NCBI GenBank assembly: GCA_902537215.1 | Contig: CACBAM010000010.1 | Coordinates: forward strand, 1-64,000 | Source: an uncultured Alphaproteobacteria bacterium | GTDB taxonomy: Bacteria > Pseudomonadota > Alphaproteobacteria > Rhodobacterales > Rhodobacteraceae | Reading direction: 5' to 3' | Length of the DNA: 64,000 bases | Shown: positions 739 to 58,210 of the stretch, piece by piece | Layout: every line of letters starts with the position of its first letter | Position numbering within the stretch: the stretch's first letter is position 1 | Made by a program: the position numbers and the translations under genes | Notes under the pieces: model-generated | Databases searched by the model: none | Told to the model about the DNA's origin: nothing | The model's input: only the letters and a program-made list of their open reading frames with translations

Positions 739-1071
739 TTATGTTTTTGGTGTAACATCATCCACAAGAACAATACCTCTATTTGCAAACACCTTTACTG
801 CTTGCTCCGCCTTCATATTGCTTTCAATTTCTTGCCATATCTCTTGACAATCTTTATATGCCTTCTCGTTCTTATATTCGAACAGATATCCTATTCTGAA
901 TACGCCTTCCTTATTCCAAACCCTAGTAATTGTGAACCTCAGCATGCCCTTTGCTTGGAGTTTAGGTAAGTACTTATCTCTCTGCTCCTGCCATCTATAT
1001 ATCCGGATTTCCATATCAGCTTTAGTAGAAAAATCTGCAGTGGTATAATTCAATAATGTTGATTCTGTCAT
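739..1071 (-). CDS. Small alpha/beta-barrel-like protein, paralogue of the gene at 56420-56749
   Basis: This 110-aa protein has no signal peptide or membrane span, so it is probably cytosolic. It has the strand-helix-strand spacing of the dimeric ferredoxin-like (ABM/NIPSNAP-type) barrel proteins. It aligns end to end with the product of 56420-56749: both start MTE(S/T), share IWNK or VWNK followed by G, then LFEY and AYKDCQ, and both end with a short IVL or VIL strand. Two copies about 56 kb apart show a real, conserved gene. NIPSNAP-like proteins often bind or transform small molecules, but no catalytic residue is evident and the function is unknown. It lies on the strand opposite to most of the surrounding small genes. 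Confidence 0.7.
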   Translation of the reverse strand: MTESTLLNYTTADFSTKADMEIRIYRWQEQRDKYLPKLQAKGMLRFTITRVWNKEGVFRIGYLFEYKNEKAYKDCQEIWQEIESNMKAEQAVKVFANRGIVLVDDVTPKT

Positions 1072-1159
1072 AGCAATCGTAAAATTTTTTTCCGGACTGA
1101 TGTTAAGGTTACTTATTTTTTAAGTCAATATAGGTGCCATCTTTTATAAGTAATGAGGG

Positions 1160-1176
1160 TCGAGCATCATGCTCGA
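1160..1176. promoter_or_regulatory. 17-nt perfect palindrome (TCGAGCAT-C-ATGCTCGA)
   Basis: Two 8-nt arms flank a single central C, too tight to fold as a hairpin, so a dimeric protein-binding site is more likely. It lies about 85 nt upstream of the start of the minus-strand gene at 739-1071, where an operator could act. A 13-nt part of it (CGAGCATCATGCT) recurs at 13441-13453. No regulator is known for this sequence. Confidence 0.3.
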
Positions 1177-1288
1177 GGGGCAAAGAGAAACACCTAAAGT
1201 TGATTTTTATCTAAAAATATATGCGACCGTGGGTGTGTAAAAAACCTCTTAAGATATTGATTGCTATTAGCTAATCTACAAAAGCTTC

Positions 1289-1303
1289 GCCACTCAAAGT
1301 GGC
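1289..1303 (-). terminator. Weak hairpin downstream of the small minus-strand gene at 1360-1548
   Basis: GCCACT and AGTGGC form a 6-bp stem with a CAA loop. Read on the minus strand it is followed by GAAGCTTTTGT, a poor T tract. It lies 57-71 nt beyond the stop of the gene at 1360-1548 and could end its transcript, but the signal is weak. Confidence 0.25.
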
Positions 1304-1359
1304 TCAATATCGAGTTTTGTCACATCACATGGTAGAGATAGGTAAGCTACCTCTATTTT

Positions 1360-1548
1360 TTATCTATAGTCTCTTTTTCCATCTACTCTTACTCGCTGAT
1401 ACAACGTTTCAGGTAGATTGTAGGCTTGGTAGATATTGTTAGATATTGATGTTCTGTTTTGGTAAACAGTCTTCACAATCCACTTGGCTCCTTTGAAGCC
1501 GAGATATCCCAACATGCCGAGAAACATTAAACTTGTCATTACACACAT
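1360..1548 (-). CDS. Hypothetical 62-aa small membrane-anchored protein
   Basis: The frame encodes an N-terminal hydrophobic stretch (MTSLMFLGMLGYLGF, after a possible alternative start at the third codon) followed by a polar, basic C-terminus with several tyrosines and arginines. This looks like a single membrane anchor with a short cytoplasmic tail. No family is recognised and no ribosome binding site is visible. It stands alone between two small alpha/beta-barrel-like genes. The hydrophobic-then-basic design supports coding, but chance is possible. Confidence 0.35.
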   Translation of the reverse strand: MCVMTSLMFLGMLGYLGFKGAKWIVKTVYQNRTSISNNIYQAYNLPETLYQRVRVDGKRDYR

Positions 1549-1737
1549 GTACTAGAAATAGCATTGTTTTGTAATTTATCAAATGCGACATTTTGAATTA
1601 CCAGGAAATACCAAAAAAAACGAAGTTTTACCCAAATAGTGCATTTTTATTCCAAAAGTTGGAAATTATTACTTTTCAAAGCGTTGAAAGCAACAAACAA
1701 TGGTTACTGTGGTTGTATTAAAATCAAGGAGATATAC

Positions 1738-2052
1738 ATGAGTGTAGCAAGAATAAATATGGTCGATTGGCGTTCTGAGGAATTATTTGTTGAAAAGACA
1801 AAAAACACAGCGTCAACAATGCGTCAATCTTTTCCAAATGCTGAGATAATGCTGCGCATTAAAACTACTCCCACATCGGTGGTGGCTATATCTATATATC
1901 CCAGTCAAGAGAAAGCTGATGACGCAAGAGCGGAGTTAGACAAAAGAATGGCAGACTATGGGGATGCTGTCAAAGACCATTGGTTTTTAGAAGGGGAGGT
2001 TATATCTGCTCATATAAATGAGGAGTGGGTGAAGAATAGTATTAAAAGATAA
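1738..2052 (+). CDS. Small alpha/beta-barrel-like protein (M-S-V-A-R family)
   Basis: The ATG at 1738 is chosen because AAGGAG lies 6 nt upstream; a longer frame to 1639 lacks a binding site. The 104-aa product begins MSVARINMVDW and is related to the protein at 57113-57406 (MAVARTNIINFF) and to the upstream-extended frame at 56783. All three share the V-A/G-R start, a central strand followed by ARAS or TTPTS, a helical stretch near residues 60-78 and a C-terminal strand ending in E-V/I. The fold is probably a dimeric ferredoxin-like barrel. The function is unknown. It is likely soluble and monocistronic. Confidence 0.65.
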   Translation: MSVARINMVDWRSEELFVEKTKNTASTMRQSFPNAEIMLRIKTTPTSVVAISIYPSQEKADDARAELDKRMADYGDAVKDHWFLEGEVISAHINEEWVKNSIKR

Positions 2053-2261
2053 CTGGTGTTTGTTACTTTAAAAATAAAACTACTACCATCTAATTACACT
2101 TTTCTGTTTGATGACCCAAGAACATGAATATGACTTCCTTTTGCTTTCTTTAGCGAAGGTAAGGAAAATAAGTTGAATATTTTTAAAGAAATAGTTGTGT
2201 AACGAAGGTTATTGTAATAGTCCTCGGGGTGGGTTCAGTTTTTTTCCTTATTTAGAGATTA

Positions 2262-2280
2262 GAGGAAATTTATTTTCCTC
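2262..2280 (+). promoter_or_regulatory. Hairpin in the cold-shock gene leader
   Basis: GAGGAAA and TTTCCTC form a perfect 7-bp stem with a TTTAT loop, 32 nt before the ATG of the cold-shock gene. Genes of this family usually have long structured leaders that control translation with temperature, so a role in regulation is plausible. No conserved cold box was identified. Confidence 0.35.
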
Positions 2281-2311
2281 AAACAAATTTAAAACAATAA
2301 GGATAGAAATT

Positions 2312-2518
2312 ATGACAAACGGAATGGTAAAATGGTTCAATACAAATAAGGGGTATGGTTTTATACAACCCGACAACGGTAATAAGGATGTCTTTGTACA
2401 TATAAGCGCCGTCGAAAAGTCTGGATTGAAAACCCTTTTAGAAAATCAAAAAGTTTCTTTTGAAATAAACCAGGATAAGGGTCGGTCATCTGCTGCCAAC
2501 ATAAAAGTTATTGGTTGA
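2312..2518 (+). CDS. Single-domain cold-shock protein (CspA family)
   Basis: The 68-aa product is a complete CSD. It has the RNP1-like KGYGFI motif near residues 13-18, the RNP2-like VFVHIS at 27-32, KWFN at 7-10 and the usual C-terminal AANIKVI strand. Proteins of this family bind single-stranded RNA and DNA and melt RNA structure at low temperature or as growth-phase regulators. The start at 2312 is chosen over 2195 because the upstream extension is not CSD-like and AAGGA precedes this ATG. The roughly 250-nt leader upstream, including the 2262-2280 hairpin, is typical of regulated csp genes. A two-domain relative is at 35822-36322. Confidence 0.92.
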
Positions 2519-2571
2519 TGAAAAAAGTAACTGTTTAAAAATCCTTCTTTTGCATACCTAATAAACGTATG

Positions 2572-2638
2572 ACTTCTTACAGTTCGTCCTAGGCGTGGGA
2601 GAGGTAACTCAATGAGAACAAAAATAGTTCAGTTTTAA
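2572..2638 (+). repeat. Possible degenerate short repeat, related to 4509-4557
   Basis: This stretch and 4509-4557 share CTTCTT, then GTGGGAG-x-GGTA, then AAAAT-x-GTT-x-AGTTT in the same order, with different spacing. Both lie in intergenic DNA of the first accessory block. A weaker relation to 2219-2247 (GTCCT-x-GG-x-GTGGG...TTCAGTTTT) is also visible. The similarity is imperfect and may be a shared promoter or leader motif rather than a mobile repeat. Confidence 0.25.
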
Positions 2639-2684
2639 TACTAATTGTATTAGAGTTTTATATCATACAAAAAGGGGGAAAATT

Positions 2685-3140
2685 GTGACAGAAGAAATAG
2701 TGAGAACTGGAGATTGTCTTTGTGGGAAAAGTCGTTACCAAACGAAGGGAGACTCTCCGAGAGCAAAAATGTGTCATTGCCGATATTGTCAAACATATAC
2801 GGGAAGCGCTTTTGGAACGCAAGTCTGGTTTCCAGAAGATAAGGTTACCTTAACCTCTGGAGAACTATCGAAATATGAAAATAATACTGAGTCAGGAAAT
2901 GTAGTAACCTTAAATTTTTGTAAAAATTGTGGTTCTACCATCTTTTTGAGACTTAATGTTTTTCAAGGTATGGTAGCTATTCCTGGAGGAAGCTTTGACC
3001 CTCCAACATTCTGGTTTGAACCACAAGTTGAAAATTTTTGTCGTACAAAAGCACCATTTATACAAACTTCTACTGCTGAAAAACACGATACACATCCAAT
3101 GTATAACTCGAAAACGCCGGATAATCACCCAGCGAAATAA
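2685..3140 (+). CDS. GFA-family zinc-binding protein (glutathione-dependent formaldehyde-activating/CENP-V type)
   Basis: The 151-aa protein shows the ordered cysteines of the GFA fold: CLCG near residue 11, CHCRYC near 30-35, and CKNCG near 79-83. These should bind structural and active-site zinc. Family members include S-(hydroxymethyl)glutathione-related enzymes, but most are uncharacterised, so the substrate is unknown. The GTG start at 2685 follows AAGGGGGAAA. It is the first of a same-strand series with the methyltransferase-like and DUF1330 genes. The C-terminal 25 residues are polar and probably disordered. A second GFA protein is at 53587-54024, in the other accessory block. Confidence 0.85.
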   Translation: MTEEIVRTGDCLCGKSRYQTKGDSPRAKMCHCRYCQTYTGSAFGTQVWFPEDKVTLTSGELSKYENNTESGNVVTLNFCKNCGSTIFLRLNVFQGMVAIPGGSFDPPTFWFEPQVENFCRTKAPFIQTSTAEKHDTHPMYNSKTPDNHPAK

Positions 3141-3218
3141 CTTGTTAAATAGCGTAAATCAAACACTTAGCCCACTTGGGCTTCTCCGAGACTTAATAAT
3201 TAAGAAGGGAATTTTGAA

Positions 3219-3665
3219 ATGAAAACAAAAGTACCACCACCAATTATAGCACTTGTAATGATAGCCATAATTTATTTATCTTCCCTCATTATTGAACCAA
3301 TTGCTTTTGGTTATCAAACAGTAATCAGTATATTAGTTGTTGTTATTGGCTTGTCATGTGCCATACCTTCTTTTCGGTTGTTTGCAAAACATAAAACAAC
3401 CATTAGTCCTTTTACCCCTTCAGAAACTACTGCACTCGTAACAGAAGGCATGTATCGATATTCAAGAAATCCCATGTACTTAGGGCTTGTCTTATTAACG
3501 ATTGCAGCAACAATTTTTTTCGGAACTTGGTTAGGAGTTGTAATCGTTGTAGCGTTTATTTTTCTCCTAAATTTTTTGCAAATTTTACCTGAAGAGAAAG
3601 CCCTTCTAGATATTTTTGGCGAAGAATATGTGGAGTATCAAAAAAAGGTAAGAAGGTGGATTTGA
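3219..3665 (+). CDS. Isoprenylcysteine carboxyl methyltransferase-like (ICMT/PEMT) membrane protein
   Basis: The 148-aa protein has about four membrane segments and the family hallmark near residues 79-90 (Y-R-Y-S-R-N-P-M-Y-L-G), followed at the C-terminus by EEKALLDIFG and EYVEYQKKVRRWI. These are the SAM-binding elements of bacterial ICMT-like methyltransferases. The start has AGAAGGG upstream. The substrate is unknown in bacteria; lipids or small isoprenoid compounds are possible. It follows the GFA gene by 78 nt and may be co-transcribed with it. Confidence 0.85.
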   Translation: MKTKVPPPIIALVMIAIIYLSSLIIEPIAFGYQTVISILVVVIGLSCAIPSFRLFAKHKTTISPFTPSETTALVTEGMYRYSRNPMYLGLVLLTIAATIFFGTWLGVVIVVAFIFLLNFLQILPEEKALLDIFGEEYVEYQKKVRRWI

Positions 3666-3706
3666 TAAATACTTTTAAGCATACTTAATGACTACGAAAA
3701 TATAGA

Positions 3707-4000
3707 ATGGTGAAGGGCTATTTATTAGGACAAATCACTATTAGTGATAAAAGCCAATATAAAATATATGACTCTAAAATCGGAAAAGTAATCGAAGAGT
3801 TTGGAGGAAAGTACCTAGTGAAAGGCGGATTGCGGATTGTTAAAGAAGGTAATCCTTCCTTTCAAAGAGACGTCTTAGTTGAGTTCAAAGATGTCAAAAC
3901 TGCTCAACGTTTTTTCTCATCGCAGCAATTTAAAGAAATCAGTAAGTTTAGAAAGGCTGGGTCAAATGGGGTTCTGTTACTCTTGAACGGGAAAGAATAG
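3707..4000 (+). CDS. DUF1330 family protein
   Basis: The 97-aa protein has the DUF1330 pattern: YLLGQITI at the N-terminus, YDSKIGKVIEEFGGKYLVKGG in the middle and a FKDVKTAQRFFSS helix before a final strand. DUF1330 proteins are small dimeric alpha/beta-barrel proteins of unknown activity. The gene lies 41 nt after the methyltransferase-like gene on the same strand. The ATG has no strong ribosome binding site. It belongs to the broad set of small alpha/beta-barrel-like proteins in this window but is not close in sequence to the others. Confidence 0.8.
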   Translation: MVKGYLLGQITISDKSQYKIYDSKIGKVIEEFGGKYLVKGGLRIVKEGNPSFQRDVLVEFKDVKTAQRFFSSQQFKEISKFRKAGSNGVLLLLNGKE

Positions 4001-4065
4001 GATTTGGAATATTTTATGAGCCATTGGCATACCAAAATACAGATTAAATATTCAAAAAAAAACGC

Positions 4066-4395
4066 TTATTTCAAATTAGTTAACATTTGTTGGATTTCCT
4101 TTGTATCTGCGATAGGGCGCTTTATTTTAACAGCCATCGTAATAACAAACTCTCCAGCTCCTAATGAGTCTAATTTATCAATTATAGTTTGTTCGCTCTC
4201 TGCATACCAATTGCAAAAAAAGAAATCTGCTTTACCCATGAAAATTTGAACAACTCTGGCTCTTTCATGAAAAGAATTTTGAGGGTCATTCATTCTATCA
4301 ACCCACATATCATTTGTTCTACCTTTGACTCTCTTTAGAAATTCTTTTTTTTTCTCATCGGAATGATACGTGTGAGTAGCTAGATAATAATCCAT
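4066..4395 (-). CDS. Hypothetical 109-aa soluble protein, probably alpha/beta-barrel-like
   Basis: The protein begins MDYYLATHTYHSDEKKKEF, has a basic helix, then strands VVQIFMGKADFFFCNWYAES and GEFVITMAVKIKRP. This is the strand-helix-strand order of small dimeric barrel proteins. It is convergent with the DUF1330 gene (66 nt apart). There is no signal peptide and no recognised catalytic motif. I do not recognise a named family. A few aromatic and His residues near the N-terminus could line a ligand pocket, but this is speculation. Confidence 0.6.
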   Translation of the reverse strand: MDYYLATHTYHSDEKKKEFLKRVKGRTNDMWVDRMNDPQNSFHERARVVQIFMGKADFFFCNWYAESEQTIIDKLDSLGAGEFVITMAVKIKRPIADTKEIQQMLTNLK

Positions 4396-4508
4396 GATTT
4401 CTTTTCTATAAGTGTTATTTATAGTTTACGAGAAACACTTCACAAATCAATATGACAACGACCAAAAATTCTTCATTAGTCAAACTCTTAATAATAATAT
4501 CGGCACAA

Positions 4509-4557
4509 ACTTCTTTCCCCCAGAGTGGGAGGGGTAGACCAAAATGGTTTAGTTTAA
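4509..4557 (+). repeat. Possible degenerate short repeat, related to 2572-2638
   Basis: It shares the ordered words CTTCTT, GTGGGAG-x-GGTA and AAAAT-x-GTT-x-AGTTT with 2572-2638. It lies directly upstream of the tRNA-Leu remnant. The match is short and interrupted. Confidence 0.25.
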
Positions 4558-4594
4558 CAAATAATGCGTGATATAATAAAACCTATTAGCTGAG

Positions 4595-4679
4595 TAATCG
4601 CTTTGTTATTATGGTAGACGCAGCGAACTCAAAATCCGCCGGTAGTAATGCCGTGAGAGTTCGGGTCTCTCCTTGGGCT
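4595..4679 (+). pseudogene. Degenerate tRNA-Leu(CAA): intact 3' half, lost 5' half
   Basis: The 3' half is a good tRNA-Leu: GGTAGACGCAGCG, a CTCAAAA anticodon loop (anticodon CAA), a long variable arm, the GAGAG-TTCGGGT-CTCTC T arm and acceptor strand CTTGGGC. The 5' acceptor strand should be GCCCAAG, but the sequence there (GAGTAATCGCTTTG) cannot pair with it. The anticodon stem has one mismatch (GCGAA against TCCGC), and no CCA is encoded. This is the shape left when an element integrates into a tRNA gene and displaces its original 3' end. The displaced end would lie at the right edge of an element extending left, which fits the accessory genes in 1-4600. Decay of a duplicated tRNA is the alternative. 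Confidence 0.6.
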
Positions 4680-4793
4680 CATTTAGAATAAAAGTATTAT
4701 CGTTTCAGAAAAAAGCTATCAGTACCCATTAAATCTAACCAAAGAGGTTAAAAATTTGTTTTTATCGTCGTTTATGTTATTTATATAAGGGGG

Positions 4794-4835
4794 ACAAACT
4801 AGAGTAGGCGAGATCAAATCATCCTACTGGTTTGT
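4794..4835. other. Interrupted inverted repeat
   Basis: ACAAAC plus GTAGG on the left can pair with CCTAC plus GTTTGT on the right (5 and 6 bp with a small bulge, 14-nt loop). It is 94 nt beyond the stop of the minus-strand efflux gene. There is no T tract on either strand, so a classical terminator is unlikely. A structured 3' region or a site near the integration scar is possible. Confidence 0.3.
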
Positions 4836-4928
4836 TTCCTTCAAGCATAAGATATTCAGTCAAATGTTTGTCTCTTTGCTGTTATGATTATAAAAGACAA
4901 CAGACTTATTATTTATAATTCTGAAATG

Positions 4929-6116
4929 TCATTTTGATCTAGTAAGCAGAGAACAGAAAAATGAAAGAACTCCTACTAATATTAAAAAATAGCACACAAA
5001 ATCTAGTGGGTTTGCTTCTTCAATATAGATACCTGTTAAAAACGCCGCAAATGAAGACATTAGGGTCATTATAGCTGAACCTAAACCAGAAGCGCTTCCC
5101 GCCAGATGTGGTATCGCCTTTACTATTTCAGCATTTGATGCAGGCCAAATAATCCCTGACCCAAAAGTCATTATAAGTATGGGTAGAAAGAAGCTTAAAG
5201 GATGGAAGAAAAAGTTAGAAAGCAATAATGAAAAAAACGGTCCCAAAAACAGTATTAAACTGCCTGATACCATTAAATTTTTCGTTGATACTAAATTAGC
5301 GATTCTGCTGACCAATATATTACCTAACACATACCCAAGAGAAGGAAGCGCTAGGTATATTCCCATAACTGTTGGAGATAAGTTAAAAACTTTTACTGCG
5401 ATGTATGGACCCCCAATAAAAAAAATCCCGAAAATAGAAAAACTTAGAGCGAACGTAGACGCCGGCAACCAAAAGTTTAAGCTAGTGATTAAAGAGGGAT
5501 ATGTTCTTATTTGAGAAAATATATCTTTGCTTTTATGGAAATGAGTCTCTCTAAGATCAATCATTATTAATGTAAGAAGCAAAAGACTAAGGAAAGTAAG
5601 AAAAAGAAAAATACCTCTTGGACCAAAATAGTCATTTATTATTCCACCTGTTAGTGGTGCCAGGGAAGGGGCAATGCCCATTGCAATTGATAATAATCCC
5701 AACATCTCCACAGTATCATCTTTCGTTGAGAAATCGCCAATGATGGCTCTAGATAGAACCAACCCCGCTGCAGAAGAAGATTGACAAAGTCTGCAAAACA
5801 TAAAGCTATTAAGATCTTCTGAAATATAACACCCCAGTGAGGAAGCAAAAAAAATGGAGAAGAACGCCAACATTATTGGACGCCTTCCAAAGCGGTCGGA
5901 TAGTGGACCTGCTATAAAATTTACAAACGCAACACCCAAAAGGTAACCAGAAATAGTATATTGGATGGTTTTATAATCTGTTTTAAACAGTTCTTGCAGG
6001 TCAGTAAGAGAGGGAACAATTATGACTTGGACTAGTATATATGTTCCCGCTAAGAGAGAAAGCGTTAAAAGATGAGGTCTTTTTTTAGTCATAATAATGG
6101 GTTTAGGCAATTGCAA
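4929..6116 (-). CDS. MFS multidrug efflux transporter (Bcr/CflA-like)
   Basis: The 395-aa protein has 12 predicted membrane segments and the MFS signature GPLSDRFGRRP in the first cytoplasmic loop (about residues 66-76). Length and overall pattern fit the drug:H+ antiporter subfamily of Bcr/CflA, inner-membrane pumps for drugs or metabolites. The frame opens with TTG at 6116; a TTG at 6110 (AGGAAG 6 nt upstream) or ATG at 6092 are alternative starts and change only the first few residues. It stands alone, divergent from the rhodanese gene. The substrate cannot be predicted. Confidence 0.88.
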   Translation of the reverse strand: MQLPKPIIMTKKRPHLLTLSLLAGTYILVQVIIVPSLTDLQELFKTDYKTIQYTISGYLLGVAFVNFIAGPLSDRFGRRPIMLAFFSIFFASSLGCYISEDLNSFMFCRLCQSSSAAGLVLSRAIIGDFSTKDDTVEMLGLLSIAMGIAPSLAPLTGGIINDYFGPRGIFLFLTFLSLLLLTLIMIDLRETHFHKSKDIFSQIRTYPSLITSLNFWLPASTFALSFSIFGIFFIGGPYIAVKVFNLSPTVMGIYLALPSLGYVLGNILVSRIANLVSTKNLMVSGSLILFLGPFFSLLLSNFFFHPLSFFLPILIMTFGSGIIWPASNAEIVKAIPHLAGSASGLGSAIMTLMSSFAAFLTGIYIEEANPLDFVCYFLILVGVLSFFCSLLTRSK

Positions 6117-6399
6117 CTTCCTAAACGCCTATCATCCTTGTAAATTCATGTAAAGATTTTGTTTTGGGTTCATGAAGCCTTAAAATGTTTACTTCATAAA
6201 AATACCTATGAAAGCATATGGAAGGGTCCTCTTTCCCTTAATGACTATTATTTTAGTTGGCGTGGCAGCCAAAATTTTTGACTAAGGAATATTAATTTTT
6301 TTGTATGATAAATTTTAGGATTAAACAAATAGAGTAGCTTTAAGTTTTGCCATAAATAAAATAGTCTGTAAATTATCTGTGATAGAGAAGGATAAAAAA

Positions 6400-6774
6400 A
6401 TGAAAACATCTAGTGAATATTTGAAAGAAGCGAATGCGTTAGTTGAAAAAATTGATGTTGAGATGGGAATTGACCGCCATAAATCGGGGAAAGCGATTTT
6501 CATTGATGTTCGAGACAGTGCCGATATCGCGTCAACTGGAACGATAAAAGGTTCGTTGCAAATTCCACGTGGGTTTATTGAGTTTGCTGCCGATGAGTCA
6601 ACGCAATTTTACAACAAAGCACTATCCAAAGATCAAGAAATTATTCTGGTGTGTGGTGCAGGTGGTATGGCTGCACTCACTGGAAAAACTTTGATTGAAA
6701 TGGGTTACAAGAATGTAAAAAACGTTGGAGGGATCGGAGACTGGATCAAAGCTGAAGGACCTGTCGAGAAATAA
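6400..6774 (+). CDS. Rhodanese-like domain protein
   Basis: The 124-aa protein is a single rhodanese domain. It has IDVRDSADI near residue 31-39 (CH2A-like), a GTIKGSLQIPRG segment and the active-site loop C-G-A-G-G-M-A with the catalytic Cys near residue 87, ending with GYKNVKNVGGIGDW. Such enzymes move sulfane sulfur from thiosulfate or a persulfide to a thiol acceptor. ATG 6400 is preferred over 6379 because AGAAGGA lies 8 nt upstream. It is cytosolic, with no signal peptide. It is the last gene before the protocatechuate operon and could instead relate to the sox genes 10 kb away, but nothing in the sequence proves a link. Confidence 0.88.
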   Translation: MKTSSEYLKEANALVEKIDVEMGIDRHKSGKAIFIDVRDSADIASTGTIKGSLQIPRGFIEFAADESTQFYNKALSKDQEIILVCGAGGMAALTGKTLIEMGYKNVKNVGGIGDWIKAEGPVEK

Positions 6775-6833
6775 TAACATGACTTTTTGATTAGTGTTTA
6801 AATGTAAAGGTATAAAGTAGAGAGTTCTCCTGG

Positions 6834-6860
6834 TTCCCTTCAGGGAAACTCCTTTAAAGG
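6834..6860 (+). promoter_or_regulatory. Small hairpin and palindrome in the operon leader
   Basis: TTCCC-TTCA-GGGAA (6834-6847) can form a 5-bp stem, and CCTTTAAAGG (6851-6860) is a perfect 10-nt palindrome. Both lie just upstream of the first gene of the aromatic operon (ATG 6875), and AAAGGGG in the palindrome probably serves as ribosome binding site. It may be a terminator of the rhodanese gene or an operator; no regulator gene is nearby. Confidence 0.3.
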
Positions 6861-6874
6861 GGTTTGCATATTAA

Positions 6875-7780
6875 ATGAGTATAGATAGTTTTACCATAGC
6901 TTTTATAGGTTTGGGAGAAGCCGCCTCTTCAATTATCTCAGGATGGGGAAACCTTCGAAATAATCAAATAAAAGCCTACGATATTAAATTGCATAAAGTT
7001 GAGTCTAAAGAAGAGATACTTGCCAGGGCAAAGGAACTAAATATCCATATAACAGTGTCTATACAAGAACTTGTTGAAGATTCTGATCTAATTTTTTCTA
7101 CAGTTACTGCTGATCAAGCTTTAAAAGTGGCGAGAGAGTCATGCCACTTTATAAAAAATGGGGCATATTTTTTTGATCTCAATTCATGTGCCCCTTCTTC
7201 GAAAAAAAGTGCATGTAAAAGTATTGAGACTAATGGAGGAGGGTACGTAGACGTTGCAGTTATGGCACCTATATATGCAAAAAAAAACCTTGTTCCTCTA
7301 TTAATCTCTGGCGATAAAGCAATTCAGGCACATGCTTTATTAGAAAAGCTTCCAATGGATGTAAAAATTATTGAGGGGCCCGTTGGTAAGGCATCTACCA
7401 TAAAAATGGTTCGTTCTATAATGGTAAAGGGGTTAGAGGCTCTCACCGCCGAGTGTGCTCTCGCAGCAGTCGAAGCTGATGTTTTAGATGAGGTATTCAA
7501 TTCATTATCGGCTGAGCATCCCCACTTTGATATTATCAAGCATTCTATTTACAATTTCGAGAGAAGCATTTCTCATGGCAAGCGTCGAGCAGAAGAGCTC
7601 AAAGAGGTATCCAAAATGCTTGAAGACTTGAGACTTGCAAATCATATGTCAAAAGCAACTGCTGTTTGGCAAAGCAATATTGGTTCATTAGGGAAGACAA
7701 ATTCAAACTCTGAAATCAAAGAAAATTTTGTTTCTTTTGCTAAACAGTTATCCTCTGAACTTAGAGACATAGAAGAGTAA
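6875..7780 (+). CDS. NAD(P)-binding beta-hydroxyacid dehydrogenase-like protein with DUF1932 C-terminal domain
   Basis: The 301-aa protein has an N-terminal Rossmann domain beginning IAFIGLGEAAS (residues 8-18) and the acid stretch DLNSCAPSS near 103-111 typical of the 6-phosphogluconate/3-hydroxyisobutyrate dehydrogenase superfamily. A helical DUF1932 domain follows (about 190-265, with the KMVRS segment containing the usual catalytic-type Lys). It would oxidise a beta-hydroxy acid with NAD(P)+, in the cytosol. It is the first gene of the lig/gal operon, 73 nt before ligA. No step of the protocatechuate 4,5 pathway requires such an enzyme, since the CHMS dehydrogenase is the separate LigC gene, so its substrate is open. 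Confidence 0.85.
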   Translation: MSIDSFTIAFIGLGEAASSIISGWGNLRNNQIKAYDIKLHKVESKEEILARAKELNIHITVSIQELVEDSDLIFSTVTADQALKVARESCHFIKNGAYFFDLNSCAPSSKKSACKSIETNGGGYVDVAVMAPIYAKKNLVPLLISGDKAIQAHALLEKLPMDVKIIEGPVGKASTIKMVRSIMVKGLEALTAECALAAVEADVLDEVFNSLSAEHPHFDIIKHSIYNFERSISHGKRRAEELKEVSKMLEDLRLANHMSKATAVWQSNIGSLGKTNSNSEIKENFVSFAKQLSSELRDIEE

Positions 7781-7853
7781 TAATATTTTTAGACCTTTTC
7801 AAAATTATTATTTAGAATTAACGGGAACTAATTGATTAGGATCTTTTTTATAA

Positions 7854-9097: not shown

Positions 9098-9107
9098 GGA
9101 AAAATAA

Positions 9108-49517: not shown

Positions 49518-49527
49518 TATTGGCCCT

Positions 49528-50310: not shown

Positions 50311-50343
50311 GTGACGTCAAGAATATCAATTAAGTTTGATATA

Positions 50344-50847: not shown

Positions 50848-50858
50848 AATAATTCTAA

Positions 50859-52505
50859 CTAGTGGCTAGTTGACTTGGACTCCCACATATCTCGTGTAGG
50901 TAGTGTTTCAAAGGTATGCTCGGGTGGTGGATTTGGTAATGTCCACTCCAAAGTGTCAGCGTGTTTTCCCCAATAAGCTTCCTCTGTTAGACGTCTACCC
51001 CACATTAATGTATAAAAAATTATGCCAAAGAAAAATATAAATGATCCAAACGATATGAAAGCTCCAATAGATGATACATAATTCCATAATGCAAATTGCT
51101 CTGGGTAATCTATATACCGTCGAGGCATACCTTGTCTCCCTAGAAAATGTTGTGGGAAGAACGTGATATTTGATCCAATGAACATGGTCCAGAAGTGTAA
51201 TTTTCCTGCCCATTCAGGATATTGACGACCAGACATTTTCCCTATCCAATAGTATATCCCAGCAAATATACAAAATACGGCGCCTAAAGACATAACATAG
51301 TGAAAGTGAGCTACAACGTAATATGTATCATGATATGCTCTGTCGATTCCCGCTTGGCTTAAAACTATGCCTGTTACTCCACCAACGGTGAAAAGAAATA
51401 GGAAGCCTATCGACCATAACATTGGTGTTTTGAACTCAACTGATCCTCCCCACATTGTTGCAATCCATGAAAAAATTTTTATCCCGGTAGGAACCGCTAT
51501 AACCATTGTTGCAAGCATAAAATAAGCTTGTTGCGTAACAGACATACCGACAGTATACATGTGATGGGCCCAGACAACAAAACCTAAGGCACCTATTGCT
51601 ATCATAGCGTAAACCATTGGTAGATAGCCGAATACCGGCTTCTTGGAAAATGTTGAAATAACATGGCTTACTATTCCAAAGCCAGGAATTACAATCATAT
51701 AAACTTCTGGGTGGCCAAAAAACCATAATAAATGCTGATAAAGTACTGGATCGCCACCTCCCGCAGGATCAAAAAACGTCGTGCCAAAATTTCTATCCGT
51801 TAAGAGCATTGTAATCGCACCGGCTAGTACAGGTAGTGATAAAAGTATGAGAAAAGCCGTAACTACTATTGACCAAGGAAAAAGAGGTGTTTTGTGAAGT
51901 GTCATGCCCGGTGCACGCATATTTAAAAAAGTTGTAATCATGTTTATGGCGCTTAAGATAGACGAAGCTCCAGATAAATGGATGGCGAATATTGCTAAAT
52001 CCATTGACATCCCCTGCTCAGAGGTTGACAAAGGAGCATACAACACCCATCCGACACCAGATCCTAATTGACCATTTCCTCCCGGTGCTAATAAGCTACA
52101 TATCGCGAGAGATGAACCTGCAACGTACAGCCAATAAGATAAGTTATTCATTCTTGGGAACGCCATATCAGGTGCACCAATCATTAACGGCATGAAGTAG
52201 TTGCCAAAACCACCGAAGAGAGCTGGAATGACAACGAAAAACATCATTAATACACCGTGGCCAGTAATTAAAACATTCCACATATGCCCGTTTGGCTCAC
52301 CATCGGCGTTAGTCATATACTGAACACCAGGTTCCATTAGCTCTAATCTCATGTAGACGGTAAATGCCACCGCTATAAAACCCAAAAGAGCCGCAGTAAA
52401 TATATATAAAATACCTATATCTTTATGATTTGTTGACATAAACCAACGAGTGAAGAAATTTTTCTTTTCGTGTTCATGTGAAATTTGATCTGTAACATCA
52501 ACCAT
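50859..52505 (-). CDS. ctaD: Cytochrome c oxidase subunit I (aa3 type)
   Basis: The 548-aa protein has twelve membrane spans and all landmark residues of CoxI: haem and Cu ligand segments [16 protein letters not shown] near 262-277, [10 protein letters not shown] near 311-320, [13 protein letters not shown] near 342-354 and the double-His region [10 protein letters not shown] near 401-410. It is the catalytic subunit reducing O2 to water with proton pumping. The gene stands without coxII, ctaB, ctaG or coxIII in the window: lipB follows upstream and DUF2244 downstream. A GGGGGCG site lies before the ATG. Confidence 0.97.
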
Positions 52506-52621
52506 TAAAAGACGCCCCCTTTTACGATAGCATTAAATTAATAATCTAAATATATATAGTACATACTTATTAATTTTTCCACCCAAAATTTAGAGACCGT
52601 TCGACGCACGTGAGAGTTTTC

Positions 52622-53281
52622 TCATTCTGTAAAAATTGTTGAAAAAGTTCTCTTAAATACCTTATCTACATCAGCCGTCTTTATTTTAATTCCAAGCTCA
52701 TTTAAAGAGGTAACTCCTTTCTCAGATATACCGCATGGATTAATGTTGGTGAAAAAGTTGAGGTTGGGGTTTACGTTTAATGCTAAGCCATGGAATGTCA
52801 CCCATTTCTTTACCCTTAATCCGAGTGCTGCTATTTTCTTATCACGAGTTCCATCTATGTTAACGCTGCCAGGATCCTCAACCCAAACTCCAACCATTCC
52901 GGGAATTCTATACCCCAAAACGCCTAGGTCTTTAAGGACCAAAATTATCCATTCTTCAATATTCCATACTAATTTTTTTATATCTTTTTTTCCGTTTCTC
53001 AAATCCAGCATAAGATAGACGATTCGTTGTCCAGGACCATGATAGGTTGTCTGCCCACCCCTTTTTGTTTTATGCATCGGAATATTGACATGGTTCTTAA
53101 AGTCGCTCATTTTTGCGGATGTGCCGAGAGTAAAAACGTTGTCATGCTCTAGAAACCATATTAGCTCTGTCTTTTGATTTGAAATTATTTTTTCAACTCG
53201 TTTAGACATCGTATGCTCGGCAATTTTGTAATCTACAAAATTTATATCGTGCTTCCATTCTATCATTTGTGCCATTAACAT
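52622..53281 (-). CDS. lipB: Octanoyltransferase LipB
   Basis: The 219-aa protein has RGGQTTYHGPGQRIVYLMLDL near residues 73-93, the catalytic Lys in KIAALGLRV near 148-156 and the catalytic Cys in NPCGI near 182-186. It transfers octanoate from ACP to lipoyl domains, the first step of lipoate assembly. Several in-frame ATGs cluster at the start (53281, 53275, 53266). It is divergent from tRNA-Leu. No LipA is seen here. Confidence 0.93.
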   Translation of the reverse strand: MLMAQMIEWKHDINFVDYKIAEHTMSKRVEKIISNQKTELIWFLEHDNVFTLGTSAKMSDFKNHVNIPMHKTKRGGQTTYHGPGQRIVYLMLDLRNGKKDIKKLVWNIEEWIILVLKDLGVLGYRIPGMVGVWVEDPGSVNIDGTRDKKIAALGLRVKKWVTFHGLALNVNPNLNFFTNINPCGISEKGVTSLNELGIKIKTADVDKVFKRTFSTIFTE

Positions 53282-53345
53282 TATCGTATTGCTTTTTTTT
53301 GGAAAATATCATATCTAACAGCAGATTGAAAATGGTATTGAAAAC

Positions 53346-53432
53346 GCGGCTGTGGCGGAATCGGTAGACGCGCAGCGTTGAGGTCGCTGTGGGGTAAAAC
53401 CCGTGGAAGTTCAAGTCTTCTCAGCCGCACCA
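53346..53432 (+). tRNA. tRNA-Leu (anticodon GAG)
   Basis: Acceptor GCGGCTG pairs with CAGCCGC, the anticodon loop TTGAGGT gives GAG, the long variable arm of class II tRNAs is present, the T arm GGAAG-TTCAAGT-CTTCT is close to full pairing, and CCA is encoded. The gene is intact. The accessory block 53433-64000 begins directly after it, a common place for island insertion. Confidence 0.96.
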
Positions 53433-53586
53433 TGATGTAGAGTTAATTTTACCTAAAGCGATGATTTATAAGCACTAGACAATTTTTATGTAATTAGGTG
53501 TGAAATAAACTAGAAAACCTATTATTTGGCTTCCATAAAAATTTTTTGCAGCTAAAATCATATTAAAAAACTGGTGAGGTTTCAAG

Positions 53587-54024
53587 ATGGCTGAACATAA
53601 TGGTGGATGCCACTGTGGAAAAATAAAATTCACTGCCAAGGATCCAATAATTAGTGTGGCTTGCAATTGCCAAAGGTGTCGTAAATTAAGTGGTAGCCTT
53701 CATATTGGTGTGATTTTTAGTGAGGAAAATTTCTCTGTAGATGGAAAGTTATCTTCTTATGAGTATATCGGCGGAAGTGGAAATAGAGTACATAGTAAAT
53801 TCTGTGGAACTTGTGGCAGTAAAATTTATTCAAAGGCTGAATTGTTTGAGGGCCTTGTTAGTGTTAAACTCGGAGTGTTGGACGATGCGCTCGATTTCCC
53901 CCCGCAGATGGAAGTGTTTACTAATTACAAACTTAATTGGCTGAAGGATAATGGTTGTATAAAGGAAAGCTTTGAAGAGGCAGCGGTTGCTGAGAGGCTA
54001 ACAAGTATACTAGAAAAATTGTAG
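53587..54024 (+). CDS. GFA-family zinc-binding protein
   Basis: The 145-aa protein has the GFA zinc pattern GCHCGKIKF near residues 7-15, CNCQRCRK near 27-34 and CGTCGSKIYSKAE near 78-90, with the fold completed by a final helix. It is related to the GFA protein at 2685-3140 but differs strongly in the middle and C-terminus. The activity is unknown; a thiol-linked aldehyde reaction is the family precedent. It is the first gene after tRNA-Leu. Confidence 0.85.
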   Translation: MAEHNGGCHCGKIKFTAKDPIISVACNCQRCRKLSGSLHIGVIFSEENFSVDGKLSSYEYIGGSGNRVHSKFCGTCGSKIYSKAELFEGLVSVKLGVLDDALDFPPQMEVFTNYKLNWLKDNGCIKESFEEAAVAERLTSILEKL

Positions 54025-54148
54025 AGAATTGAAAACAAATTAAATTAAGAAAGAAAACGGCCATTATCAGGCACGAATATATCTATGGTATGTGAAGTAA
54101 GTAGGCTTGATTATGCGAACAAAGTCGGTTCTTAGGTATTGTTAAAAA

Positions 54149-54586
54149 TTGATTAATTCAAAAAAATTGATGGAAACTTATTTAATTGAGGTTGGTCAGA
54201 ATGGTCGGTTGGAGTTAATTGAGACTATTACACAACCAGATATGGTTGATGAAGCCAATAGAGCCTTTGGTGGACCAATAGGAAGAGATGGGCTTATAGC
54301 TCATGTCAAAAAATTTCGGAGTCAGATAGGAGAATTAAAACTTGAGATAAAGCAGATAGTAGGAAATGAAAATGAAGTCATGGCTCATTGGTTCTTTACC
54401 GGGATCCATATAGGTCCCTGGTTAAAACGTGAGGCAACAGGGAAAGAAGTTTCAGCAGATGTATTTAGCTTCTTTACATTGAAAGACGGACTAATTAGTT
54501 ATTATCGTCTTTGGCTACATGCTATGATTGATGGGCCCGTAATTTTCGATTCATCTTGCCCACGCATAGAAAAAAGAAAAATTTAA
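54149..54586 (+). CDS. SnoaL-like (NTF2-fold) polyketide cyclase family protein
   Basis: The 145-aa protein follows the SnoaL/ester cyclase pattern: an N-terminal helix LMETYLIEVGQNGRLELIE, FGGPIGRDGLIAHVKKFRSQIG near 40-61, VMAHWFFTGIHIGPW near 78-92 and a DGLISYYRLWLHA strand near 116-128. NTF2-fold proteins bind small hydrophobic ligands, often as hydrolases or isomerases. A TTG at 54149 or ATG at 54170 can start it; the former keeps the whole N-terminal helix. The biological role is unknown. Confidence 0.75.
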   Translation: MINSKKLMETYLIEVGQNGRLELIETITQPDMVDEANRAFGGPIGRDGLIAHVKKFRSQIGELKLEIKQIVGNENEVMAHWFFTGIHIGPWLKREATGKEVSADVFSFFTLKDGLISYYRLWLHAMIDGPVIFDSSCPRIEKRKI

Positions 54587-54636
54587 AAGTATAAGGTATA
54601 TATCTTTAACTAATTTTTAATATTGAGTCTTAAAAA

Positions 54637-55782
54637 ATGCTCGCTAAATCGATATTGATTATATTCCTAGGCCTATGTCTTTCAGTACCAGCTCTTGGAA
54701 AGCAATACTGGCCAACCATAGAATGGAAATCAAGCTCACCTCAGTCGCAAGATTTTGATCCTAGATCGATACGAGAAATGTTTCAATTTATACAGAAAAA
54801 ACAATTTCCAATAGACAGTGTCGTAATTGTTAAAAATGGGTATTTGATTGGCGAGTTTTATTCAAATAACACAAATGAGCACACGCTCAGTAATATATAT
54901 TCCGTGACAAAAAGTTTCACTTCAGCGCTTGTCGGTATTGCAATCGATAAAGGCCATATTAAAAGTGAAAAGCAGACATTAGGTTCAATATTTCCAAGAA
55001 ATAATGTAATTAAAAATAACCCAAAGCTGAAAGATATTAGAGTTAGAAATTTATTGACAATGACCTCTGGTTTAAAAACTAGAGATAATCATCTTTCAAA
55101 TTATGCAGGAGTTTTTGCCCTTAGAAATTCAACAAATTGGGTTGACTATATTTTTTCATTGGGGACAGAAGAAAAACAAGGTCAATATTACAACTATAGT
55201 AACGGTGGCTCTCATATATTATCAGCCATTCTTTTTGAAATTGCAAAAGTTCCAGTGGAAAAATATGCAGAAAGGTATCTGTTTTCGCATATTGGAATAA
55301 AAAATTATAAATGGGAAAAGGATCCGCAAGGGATTAATCATGGGTATTCCAATCTTGAGTTGTCTGCTAGAGATATGGCAAAATTAGGTTTACTTTATTT
55401 AAATAAAGGGCAATGGGACAAAAAACAGATTATAAGCGCATCATGGATAGAAAAATCTTTAAAAACCCATTCCTATCCAAATAAGGGACGGTTTAATCCC
55501 CTCAAACTCTATCCCTATAATGGATATGGCTATCAATGGTGGAGCAGTGAAACTGCTTGGAAGGCTGATCTTAGTTATCGTAAGGCTTGGGGAATGGGAA
55601 ATAACTCAGTGCAACAATCTGAGTACTTTTTAGCATTAGGATATGAAGGACAATATGTGTTTATAGTACCTGATCATAACATGGTAATAGCTTTTAAATC
55701 GCAATTAAAAATTGCCAGAGATATTTTGATTCCAAAAGCATTAGTTGAAGAATTCCTTTTAAATTATAAAGTGGACAAATAG
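54637..55782 (+). CDS. Serine hydrolase of the beta-lactamase class C/esterase family
   Basis: The 381-aa protein has a signal peptide (about residues 1-21) and the class C motifs S-V-T-K at residues 89-92 (nucleophile Ser89, Lys92) and YNYSNGG near 183-189 (Tyr of the Y-x-N motif). NGYGYQWWSS and GYEGQYVFIVPDHNMVIAF fill the rest. It is exported and probably acts as an esterase, amidase or peptidase; a true beta-lactamase is not implied. It stands with small accessory genes after tRNA-Leu. Confidence 0.85.
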   Translation: MLAKSILIIFLGLCLSVPALGKQYWPTIEWKSSSPQSQDFDPRSIREMFQFIQKKQFPIDSVVIVKNGYLIGEFYSNNTNEHTLSNIYSVTKSFTSALVGIAIDKGHIKSEKQTLGSIFPRNNVIKNNPKLKDIRVRNLLTMTSGLKTRDNHLSNYAGVFALRNSTNWVDYIFSLGTEEKQGQYYNYSNGGSHILSAILFEIAKVPVEKYAERYLFSHIGIKNYKWEKDPQGINHGYSNLELSARDMAKLGLLYLNKGQWDKKQIISASWIEKSLKTHSYPNKGRFNPLKLYPYNGYGYQWWSSETAWKADLSYRKAWGMGNNSVQQSEYFLALGYEGQYVFIVPDHNMVIAFKSQLKIARDILIPKALVEEFLLNYKVDK

Positions 55783-55839
55783 GCAAAACGGTTGCCTAAT
55801 ACTATAAGTTCATAAAATAAACTAAAAAAGGAGAGCAGA

Positions 55840-56196
55840 ATGAATGTAGATCAAGTACTTGTAGCGGCAAATAATAGGATACACGATGTATATAAAACAC
55901 TTTATGTATCGATAGCTAGCTATCTAATAATAATAATAGGGTTAACAGTATCAGATTCTGGTGAAGTAGACTTAATTTGTGCTGTATTAGCGGTTGCAAT
56001 AGCTATTGTGCAAATCGCTGCAGGAGACGGCGCCATCAGAGATATTGAGGCTTTAAGAAGTGATATGCCTAAGGAAATGCAAAATTCGAATTATGCAGAA
56101 AGTTGGCGATCACAACCGATCGGGCTATTTAGATTATTAAATTTAATCGTGCCGATAGCCGTGAGTGGAGCAACGCTCTTAACTATTTACAACTAA
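55840..56196 (+). CDS. Hypothetical membrane protein with three spans
   Basis: The 118-aa protein has hydrophobic segments near residues 21-37, 43-62 and 96-116. An amphipathic stretch lies between (GAIRDIEALRSDMPKEMQNSN). A good ribosome binding site (AAAGGAGAGC) precedes the ATG. I recognise no family. The gene starts 58 nt after the serine hydrolase on the same strand, but a functional link is not shown. Confidence 0.6.
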   Translation: MNVDQVLVAANNRIHDVYKTLYVSIASYLIIIIGLTVSDSGEVDLICAVLAVAIAIVQIAAGDGAIRDIEALRSDMPKEMQNSNYAESWRSQPIGLFRLLNLIVPIAVSGATLLTIYN

Positions 56197-56419
56197 TAAA
56201 AACAAATTGGAGTGGCATTTCCAATACGTGCGGTCCTTTACCCACTTGAGAAAGCCATTCTGTTATCAAAAGTAGCTATTGAGTTTTTTAAATTAGTATA
56301 GCTGTCAAGCTTAAAAAAAATTAAATATTTTTATATTCAAATACGTCCGATCTTTTTGTGATAACTCAAATAACTTAATTAGTAAGTTTTGAATAATATT
56401 TAATATTAAAATTTTTCAC

Positions 56420-56749
56420 TCAGAACAGATCTTGAAGAATGACGTTTCTACTGGACTCGATAACCGGGCTAATAGCTTCAAGCTCTTTCATTATGCTTTG
56501 CCGGAAATTATCAATGGCTTTTTGACAATCCTTATATGCTTGTGGACTATTATATTCAAAAAGTGTTGATGTCTTATAAGTACCCTTTTTATTCCAAATT
56601 TGATTGTAGCAGAATCTTGTACATCCTTTTTGTTTAAGCATTGCAAAAAGGAGTTTTCCTTTTTCTTCCCATAACCTTATGTGAAGAAGCATTTGAGCCT
56701 CAGTTTTAAATTTAAAAGTGTTGTACGACATGAGATTGGTTTCAGTCAT
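56420..56749 (-). CDS. Small alpha/beta-barrel-like protein, paralogue of the gene at 739-1071
   Basis: The 109-aa protein (start ATG 56749 with GAGAGG upstream) shares with the product of 739-1071 MTET-x-L, QIWNKKGTY compared with RVWNKEGVF, TLFEYNSPQAYKDCQ compared with YLFEYKNEKAYKDCQ and a C-terminal NVILQD strand. The two genes lie in different accessory blocks. The family resembles NIPSNAP/ABM-like barrels. The function is unknown. It is part of a minus-strand cluster of similarly sized genes up to 58210. Confidence 0.7.
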   Translation of the reverse strand: MTETNLMSYNTFKFKTEAQMLLHIRLWEEKGKLLFAMLKQKGCTRFCYNQIWNKKGTYKTSTLFEYNSPQAYKDCQKAIDNFRQSIMKELEAISPVIESSRNVILQDLF

Positions 56750-56782
56750 TTTATTGCCTCTCATAAGCTAAGTATGAAATAA

Positions 56783-57052
56783 TTATTGCTTCCTTAATTG
56801 TTGGATAACATCACCGTCAAATACAATGGTATCTGTGATCTTAAAATCGTATTGTTCCCTCCATTTTGACATTTCGCTAAAAAATAAGTCACCTTTTTCC
56901 TTAGTTTCAAAAATAACAAACATCAAAACTGAGTCTTGACTAGCTCTAACCCAAGTGATTTCTAATAAACCACGTTCTAAGAGTTCGGGAACTTTGGTAG
57001 TATGCATCGCAATAAATATCTCACAGTCTGCCTCTGTGAAAAAGTTAAACAT
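56783..57052 (-). CDS. Small alpha/beta-barrel-like protein, start possibly at an upstream ATT codon
   Basis: From ATG 57052 the protein has 89 residues (MFNFFTEADCEIFIAMH...). Extended upstream in frame, the sequence continues I-S-V-G-R-V-G-M-F-N-F-F from an ATT codon at 57071-57073, which aligns residue for residue with M-A-V-A-R-T-N-I-I-N-F-F of the next gene (57113-57406). Either translation starts at ATT, which is known but rare, or the first strand has been lost. The gene lies 30 nt downstream of... its neighbour at 56749 on the same strand is close, so the four genes probably form an operon. The function is unknown. Confidence 0.65.
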   Translation of the reverse strand: MFNFFTEADCEIFIAMHTTKVPELLERGLLEITWVRASQDSVLMFVIFETKEKGDLFFSEMSKWREQYDFKITDTIVFDGDVIQQLRKQ

Positions 57053-57112
57053 GCCAACCCTACCAACACTAATATTGCGAAATTATTCCCTTACCTTGAT
57101 TAGATAACAATA

Positions 57113-57406
57113 CTAATTTTTCATTTTACCATATTCATAAAGGATTTCTCCATCAAAGGTAATTACGTCAACCTTAAAGTCGTACTTTTTACGCCATTCA
57201 TTCGCCCTTCTTAATATCTCTTGAGCGCCTTCTTCGGTTTCAACGACAGAAAAATATAGAAGTGAGGTTGTACTTGCTCTTACATACGTTGCTTCAAGAA
57301 GACCACATTCATCCAAGGAACTTGCAAACTCTTTATGAAGAGCAAAATATTTATCGAAATCTTCTTCCGAAAAAAAGTTTATAATATTAGTCCTAGCTAC
57401 AGCCAT
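57113..57406 (-). CDS. Small alpha/beta-barrel-like protein (M-A-V-A-R family)
   Basis: The 97-aa protein begins MAVARTNIINFFSEEDFDKYF and continues with a strand TYVRASTTSLLYFSVVE, a helix EEGAQEILRRANEWRKKYDF and a final strand VDVITFDGEIL. It is closely related to 56783-57052 (WVRASQDSVLMFVIF; KWREQYDFKITDTIVFDGDVI) and distantly to 1738-2052 and 57908-58210. The fold is a probable dimeric barrel. No catalytic residue or ligand is recognised. Confidence 0.7.
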   Translation of the reverse strand: MAVARTNIINFFSEEDFDKYFALHKEFASSLDECGLLEATYVRASTTSLLYFSVVETEEGAQEILRRANEWRKKYDFKVDVITFDGEILYEYGKMKN

Positions 57407-57444
57407 TTTTACTATTTATTTAGAAAGCTTTTTTCATTTAAATT

Positions 57445-57780
57445 TTAGATGCGACCTACCTTCTCCAAATCACGAACGCTGACAACATCTCTCCAGACTT
57501 TATTATCTTTCCATAATTGCACATTGGTAGTTTCCCACTTTTTACCTCCGTGTTCTATTAGGACGTCCCTCCATGCCAATAGATCTTTATTTTCAATTAT
57601 AAGCTCAAGTTTTTCAAAAGTTAAACCATCCTCAAATCTTTTTTTTATGAACGATACCATCTCATCTTTGGATATCAATGTAGTTTCTCTTAGATATAAA
57701 TATTCATCGTGTAAAATATCCTGAAGTCCCTCAAAGTCTTTATTCTCAATCAGGCTTTTAATTATGTTCCATTTGTTCAT
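57445..57780 (-). CDS. NTF2-like (SnoaL/DUF4440-type) protein
   Basis: From ATG 57780 (GAGG about 5 nt upstream) the protein has 111 residues: MNKWNIIKSLIENKDFEGLQDIL, DEYLYLRETTLISKDEMVSFIKKRF, EKLELIIENKDLLAWRD, WETTNVQLWKDNKVWRDVVSV. This is the cone-shaped NTF2 fold used by ketosteroid isomerase-like and DUF4440 proteins. It sits inside the cluster of small barrel-like genes on the same strand. A frame start at 57837 is less likely. Substrate unknown. Confidence 0.65.
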   Translation of the reverse strand: MNKWNIIKSLIENKDFEGLQDILHDEYLYLRETTLISKDEMVSFIKKRFEDGLTFEKLELIIENKDLLAWRDVLIEHGGKKWETTNVQLWKDNKVWRDVVSVRDLEKVGRI

Positions 57781-57907
57781 TAGCGCCTCAAATTGCTTTT
57801 TACATCGATAATAAATTTTATTGATTAGCCCTGCCAAAAGAAATTTTATAAAAAAATTTTATTTAAATTCATCACATATTCAGCAATATATATCTAAGCA
57901 GTAGCTT

Positions 57908-58210
57908 TTACCTTCCTAGTGATAGAACTTGGTCGACCTCCCAATTATATGAAATTGTTTTTGGTGCTAGTCGATCTCTAAAAGGTACGATTATTTGCTC
58001 TCCTATTTTCATAATAACTTTTTGGTCTGCTTTTTGTTTAAAGGTCCAGAGTGCTAACATTCTATTCGGCATATCTATATCTTTAACTATTTCCAGAGTG
58101 CTCTCGGGAACTGAGTCTTTATATTTAGGCCACTGCTGTTTTAATACCATAATGAACATTTCACATTCATCTTCGGAAGAAAATGTATTTATGATAGTTG
58201 TCTTAAACAT
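57908..58210 (-). CDS. Small alpha/beta-barrel-like protein
   Basis: The 100-aa protein begins MFKTTIINTFSSEDECEMFI, very like IINFFSEEDFDKYF of 57113-57406 at the N-terminus, then diverges (ESTLEIVKDIDMPNRMLALWTF, VPFRDRLAPKTISYNWEVDQVL). This matches the same strand-helix-strand-helix-strand plan. It is the upstream gene of the minus-strand group 57908, 57445, 57113, 56783, 56420. No function is known. Confidence 0.65.
   Translation of the reverse strand: MFKTTIINTFSSEDECEMFIMVLKQQWPKYKDSVPESTLEIVKDIDMPNRMLALWTFKQKADQKVIMKIGEQIIVPFRDRLAPKTISYNWEVDQVLSLGR

Follow-up and report, generated by a model that had tools for sequence, protein, structure and literature searches.

Hydrophobic small molecules that carry oxygen are frequent targets of both dimeric alpha/beta barrel (DABB)-type and NTF2-like proteins, SnoaB, OAC and SnoaL being examples. 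Here we analyse a stretch of 64,000 nucleotides (the window; positions 1 to 64,000, forward strand, of contig CACBAM010000010.1, assembly GCA_902537215.1) from an uncultured alphaproteobacterium of the Rhodobacteraceae, which carries eight genes for small proteins and a gene for an NTF2-like protein. One structural study describes 2OD4, 2OD6 and 2OP5 as solved from novel ocean-metagenome families (PMC2557142), and another lists 10-oxohexadecanoic acid as the ligand in 2OD6 (PMC2954221). The best reading of the locus, to which we give a little under an even chance, is that it encodes pairs of a DABB and an NTF2-like protein that serve as enzymes or carriers for hydrophobic, oxygenated molecules. 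This reading draws on paralogy, on the fold (from prediction or homology), on high copy numbers across the genus, on a tight and recurrent pairing of the genes and on purifying selection on the gene run; within it we infer dimer formation, the ligand class, catalysis, co-transcription and functional partnership. What this analysis chiefly adds is the pairing of DABB with NTF2-like genes and a connection to solved ocean proteins.

All eight small open reading frames proposed in an earlier, sequence-only reading of this DNA are present, at the coordinates and on the strands that it gave. Together with the NTF2-like gene they are:

739..1071, minus strand: DUF6974 protein P0001, family B, 110 aa (PF22388, 71.1 bits, cut-off 26)
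1738..2052, plus strand: family A protein, P0002-type, 104 aa (no credible Pfam or NCBIfam match)
3707..4000, plus strand: DUF1330 protein P0003, 97 aa (PF07045, 78.1 bits, cut-off 23)
4066..4395, minus strand: family C protein P0004, 109 aa (N-terminal motif T-H-T-x-H-S)
56420..56749, minus strand: DUF6974 protein P0005, 109 aa, last gene of the run (PF22388, 32.9 bits, cut-off 26)
56783..57052, minus strand: family A protein P0006, 89 aa as annotated (41% identity to P0007)
57113..57406, minus strand: family A protein P0007, 97 aa (AlphaFold2 model)
57445..57837, minus strand: NTF2/SnoaL-like protein P0009, family D (weak SnoaL_3/SnoaL_2 matches)
57908..58210, minus strand: family E protein P0008, 100 aa, first gene of the run (probable remote relative of family A)

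Genes are referred to by their first coordinate: family A comprises 1738, 56783 and 57113, family B is DUF6974, and families C, D and E are those of 4066, the NTF2-like gene 57445 and 57908, respectively. The minus-strand run at 56420-58210, earlier credited with five such genes, holds four of them plus the NTF2-like gene (five in all). Confinement of the set to two accessory blocks is true within the window but not of the genome, where further copies lie on contigs C1, C2, C4 and C7.

The recurrence of the NTF2-like pairing is new here, as the sequence-only reading had noted one NTF2-like gene and not that such neighbours recur. Our genus set comprises 22 genomes, including that of the window. 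Among its 99 family D matches, 34 have an A or C gene on the same strand within 150 bp (31 A, 3 C); on either strand the figure is 41 of 99, against 0.58 expected from a simple random-placing estimate that uses rounded genome sizes and includes neither a permutation nor a hot-spot control. The count took in all rows for A (119), DUF6974 (50) and D (99) and 58 of the 63 rows for C (five short fragments were omitted). Broken genes entered as two rows, and remote A-like genes found only by an iterated profile (e.g., L150:1792-2097) lie outside the count. D pairs with different A clusters and in both gene orders. A is followed by D, with 2-80 bp between them, at loci L052, L053, L054, L067 and L069; D is followed by a 1738-type A gene at L050 (a 19 bp gap or an 11 nt overlap, depending on the start) and by a remote A-like gene at L150 (21 bp). 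In another alphaproteobacterial family (L115/L137), a 1738-type gene is followed by D after 24 bp. A single B-D neighbour was identified (L140, with 205 bp between the open frames). Literature searches on DABB proteins with NTF2-like proteins, or with Rhodobacteraceae, returned no title on such pairs among the matches listed.

The order of the window's run, E-D-A-A-DUF6974, recurs in relatives. Fifteen relative loci were retrieved with 57113, and an A gene is therefore present in them by construction. The E, D and 57113-type genes are consecutive on one strand in 11 of the 15, with fragments in one more (L049), the E gene lying upstream of the NTF2-like gene, and the gap between D and A is exactly 38 bp in seven of the 15 loci as well as in the window. 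For intact-looking copies, the ratio of nonsynonymous to synonymous substitution rates (dN/dS) is 0.049 for 57908, 0.061 for the NTF2-like gene, 0.055 for 57113, 0.068 for 56783 and 0.056 for 56420. These copies (7-11 per gene, window included) were chosen for that appearance, and pairs with dS of 0, dS >= 2 or a failed calculation were dropped, leaving 46/55, 36/36, 45/55, 30/36 and 20/21 pairs. Thus, the proteins of the run are under strong purifying constraint, despite broken copies elsewhere. Promoter-like sites (13, against a shuffle mean of 11.4) and terminator-like sites (2, against 1.1) in the run were uninformative. The annotated ATG of 56783 lies 7 codons downstream of the orthologue start; the in-frame upstream codons are present and begin with ATT, and the 7 residues that they encode correspond to the opening half of strand 1 in the model of 57113. 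Translation of the window copy may begin at a rare codon; alternatively, its product may lack that half strand. For the NTF2-like gene 57445, the conserved start is probably the ATG at about 57780.

These spacings and ratios bear on a different explanation, in which unrelated small enzymes of accessory metabolism gather in the same recombination hot spots, so that neither a shared fold nor adjacency would signify a common pathway. We consider such coincidence unlikely, though worth serious attention: the Resolvase genes close to family A members at L053 and L054, the patchy presence and broken copies among relatives and the existence of at least four sequence families with only the fold in common all speak for it, whereas the same-strand spacing of 2-38 bp, maintained in several arrangements, in both orders, with different A clusters and in one pair from another family, speaks against it, as do the dN/dS values of 0.05-0.07 and the 34 of 99 observed pairs versus 0.58 by random placing (an estimate with no hot-spot control).

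A second cluster of the window's genome, at about 9357-12525 of L050 (G000:C4:50000-69000), has two A genes adjoining DsbA-type and GST genes; one C gene, one NTF2-like gene and one 1738-type A gene also belong to it, and two genes judged by eye to encode ribosomal proteins lie alongside. At L048 1844-4849, in relative G021, 1738-, 56783- and 57113-type A genes occur with C and D in about 3 kb; thus, both of the window's accessory blocks are represented side by side in G021. ABM and ydhR-type genes (by Pfam) lie near A genes at L069 4278-4625, L146 9937-10239 and L052 7257-7562, so these regions gather several small barrel-type families. Resolvase genes (Pfam Resolvase, E ~1e-40) are found about 0.5-1.7 kb from A genes, at L053 10503-11045 and L054 4077-4628. 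Neighbours at other loci include GST, DsbA-type and Rieske proteins, and those in the window include GFA and SnoaL proteins, a setting that suits accessory small-molecule metabolism.

The expectation of many copies per genome was borne out for this genus. Family A has 119 matches and DUF6974 50, each in all 22 genomes (over the cut-off in 21 for DUF6974), while C has 63 and D has 99, each in 20 of 22; the window's own 2.1 Mb genome has 8 matches for A, 5 for DUF6974 (4 of which pass the cut-off), 5 for C and 8 for D. At 60% identity, the compared proteins form 20 clusters for A (three consist of a single protein found outside the genus), 9 for DUF6974, 9 for C and 11 for D. Streamlined ocean genomes are expected to hold few redundant genes. 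Genomes of this genus measure 1.0-2.3 Mb (many are incomplete), versus 2.3-5.6 Mb in the other listed genera of the family; contrary to that expectation, three unexplained families of small proteins are retained as many divergent copies. The search with 57113 yielded 15 named records (14 uncultured Alphaproteobacteria and one Rhodobacteraceae); the AG- records are presumably ocean single-cell genomes. The source bacterium has a small genome and is probably oceanic.

Beyond the genus, hardly any A or DUF6974 genes were found in the part of the class that was sampled. In an order sample of 292 genomes the A profile matched only its own genome, and in a class sample of 385 it matched 3 of the 384 others; relatives were found in 4 of 384 with the 1738-type profile A8, and DUF6974 in 1 of 384. 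P0007 alone was found in 0 of 79 genomes outside the genus. C and D were searched within the genus, plus D/C in a few outside stretches that were fetched. A phage, plasmid or defence origin was considered and rejected, as PADLOC (best E 0.0056) and PHROGs (best E 0.037) gave nothing convincing; in PADLOC, only P0002 among nine proteins matched at E 0.1, through two weak partial matches. P0007, the only protein searched there, was not found in viral contigs and phages, nor was P0001, the only one searched in plasmids, found in those.

The eight proteins had been taken as one family of unknown function, which needs division into at least four sequence families (A, DUF6974, DUF1330 and C). P0001 and P0005 are DUF6974 members, both over the gathering cut-off of PF22388 (26 bits), and P0003 is a DUF1330 member over that of PF07045 (23 bits); Pfam gave no credible match for the five other window proteins, and NCBIfam none for any of the eight. 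A single common sequence family was rejected, since in profile-profile comparison of ten family pairs C matched none of the others, with no detectable similarity to A or DUF6974. For A against DUF6974, hhalign gives P 3.8e-4 over 95 columns, and for A against E (P0008) P 2.4e-4 over only 31 columns, values that suggest a relationship of A to both.

The proposed paralogy stands: 739 and 56420 are 36% identical across 107 aa (z 31 in local alignment, with 0 of 300 shuffles reaching the score), 57113 and 56783 share 41% over 88 aa (z 30), and 1738 is linked more weakly (z 7.5 with 56783 and 5.9 with 57113; 0 of 300 shuffles each). The case for 57908 as a distant paralogue is weak (pairwise z 3.6, with 1 of 300 shuffles reaching the score; E 0.22 in a genome-wide profile search), and we regard it as probably a remote relative of A. 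Profile A8, built without P0007, recovers that protein in its own genome at E 1.2e-5; thus, A is one family. P0002 was placed in the seed of profile A3, matches to which are therefore no proof of its membership; the independent evidence is the pairwise test and profile A8.

A shared subunit plan is upheld for A and C (by AlphaFold2) and for DUF6974 (by homology). The A and C models have a ferredoxin-like beta-alpha-beta-beta-alpha-beta subunit; C has one more helix, placed after the first helix and ahead of strand 2. The DUF6974 fold is taken from the sequence homologues 2op5 and 2od6, entries titled dimeric ferredoxin-like (E 1.3e-11 and 1.9e-11, respectively, with P0001); these relatives, solved in 2007, come from uncultured marine organisms. 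P0003 has the solved homologue 2fiu (E 6e-10), and DUF1330 is, we take it, a barrel family. The best Foldseek matches of the predicted family A fold are 2OP5, 2OD4 and 2OD6 (TM 0.69-0.79, rmsd 2.2-3.3 Å); the family A profile has no match to these three sequences up to E 10, and a PDB sequence search with families A, C and E and with P0002 alone gave no credible match. Kinship with PII-like (SbtB-type) signalling proteins is very improbable: many of the best 50 Foldseek rows are PII-like chains, SbtB among them (top E ~4e-5), but with TM by query length of 0.46-0.59 and rmsd of 3.3-5.7 Å compared with the values just given for the marine barrels. No PII-like chain is among the 50 VIA rows listed.

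The idea that the proteins bind related small ligands gains one outside support, the 10-oxohexadecanoic acid listed for 2OD6, a DUF6974 relative (E 1e-12). A literature search under the name DUF6974 returned no paper, and the listed matches for 10-oxohexadecanoic acid are metabolomics by title. It might be supposed that A and DUF6974 are cofactor-independent monooxygenases of the ABM/SnoaB/YgiN kind, whose subunits are of a similar type. We find this improbable, as 0 of 15 A3 members match Pfam ABM (PF03992) at E 0.1, while true ABM genes are found in the vicinity of A genes (L146, L069). SnoaB uses Asn18, Asn63 and Trp67 (PMC8093152), whereas the near-invariant A3 columns are only F11, S48, D80 and G86, the two sets being compared without structural alignment. 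None of the eight window proteins matches the ABM profile at E 1. Metal handling, as the resemblance of family C to nickel-binding SCO4226 might imply, is quite unlikely. The corresponding profile, PF14026, matches 2 of 12 family C members, with a best E of 0.045, below the cut-off.

Of 11 compared members of family D, the candidate partner, 7 match SnoaL_2 at E <= 0.1 (best 1.2e-6) and 6 match DUF4440 (best 5e-6, with L050:11892-12218 over the cut-off). P0009 itself has weak SnoaL_3/SnoaL_2 matches, below the Pfam cut-offs. To our knowledge, no activity has been reported for NTF2/SnoaL-like family D. Outside this family, a clear SnoaL-like gene (E 4e-18) occurs at 54149-54586 of the window, flanked by a GFA gene and a beta-lactamase-fold gene.

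We predict that the small ferredoxin-like subunits pair into DABBs with an internal pocket. A, DUF6974 and C each occur in the genus as numerous diverged paralogues, which would serve different substrates. Genes of A, and sometimes of C, repeatedly stand beside an NTF2/SnoaL-like gene, whose product also has a pocket fold, and co-transcription of the two is probable. The DABB protein and the NTF2-like protein encoded next to it may share one target, a small hydrophobic molecule bearing oxygen (aromatic, or resembling an oxo-fatty acid), either as a cofactor-free two-step enzyme pair or as an enzyme plus a carrier.

Several points weigh against such pairs. No catalytic residue has been demonstrated, and no activity of A, C or DUF6974 was found in the literature consulted; the 2OD6 ligand may be a lipid of the expression host and has no direct bearing on A or C. 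Orthologous loci were counted many times, which inflates the pairing count, although five distinct A-D arrangements remain. Of the 99 D matches, 58 lack an A, B or C gene within 150 bp on either strand; 87 of the 119 A matches lack D within 300 bp, and no DUF6974 match in the count has D within 300 bp, so the families are common partners but not obligatory ones. The whole run of five genes is present as open frames in only 5 of the 15 loci, and some genomes carry broken copies of them. The nearby Resolvase genes are consistent with a recombination hot spot, which could explain part of the clustering. The NTF2-like neighbour is nonetheless a concrete candidate partner for the DABB proteins, and the 2OD6 ligand indicates the compound class to try first. 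More speculatively, and on balance doubtfully, the genes could belong to an undescribed two-part system of ocean bacteria, in which interchangeable DABB proteins (A, C and perhaps DUF6974) and NTF2-like proteins would make up a diversified set of carriers or cofactor-free enzymes that handle oxidised lipids and similar hydrophobic compounds, maintained in many copies by a genus with smaller genomes than the related genera.

Among known systems, ABM-type oxygenases (SnoaB, YgiN, LsrG, MhuD) and the polyketide cyclase OAC have, like A, a small, ferredoxin-like subunit of dimeric-barrel type, but identity to A in VIA alignments is about 8-14%, and A has no ABM profile match. For family C, the nearest fold and a weak profile match are those of SCO4226 (nickel-responsive, PF14026); C has the N-terminal THTxHS motif. 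Family D members match NTF2/SnoaL-like profiles (SnoaL_2, DUF4440), with P0009 below the cut-offs. P0003 is an ordinary DUF1330 member, comparable to 2fiu, with nothing unusual seen. The closest solved folds to family A are 2OP5, 2OD4 and 2OD6, but A lacks a sequence match to them and a credible Pfam match. With 2OP5 and 2OD6 the link is one of family for P0001 and P0005, which belong to DUF6974, and with 2OD4 it is one of fold only.

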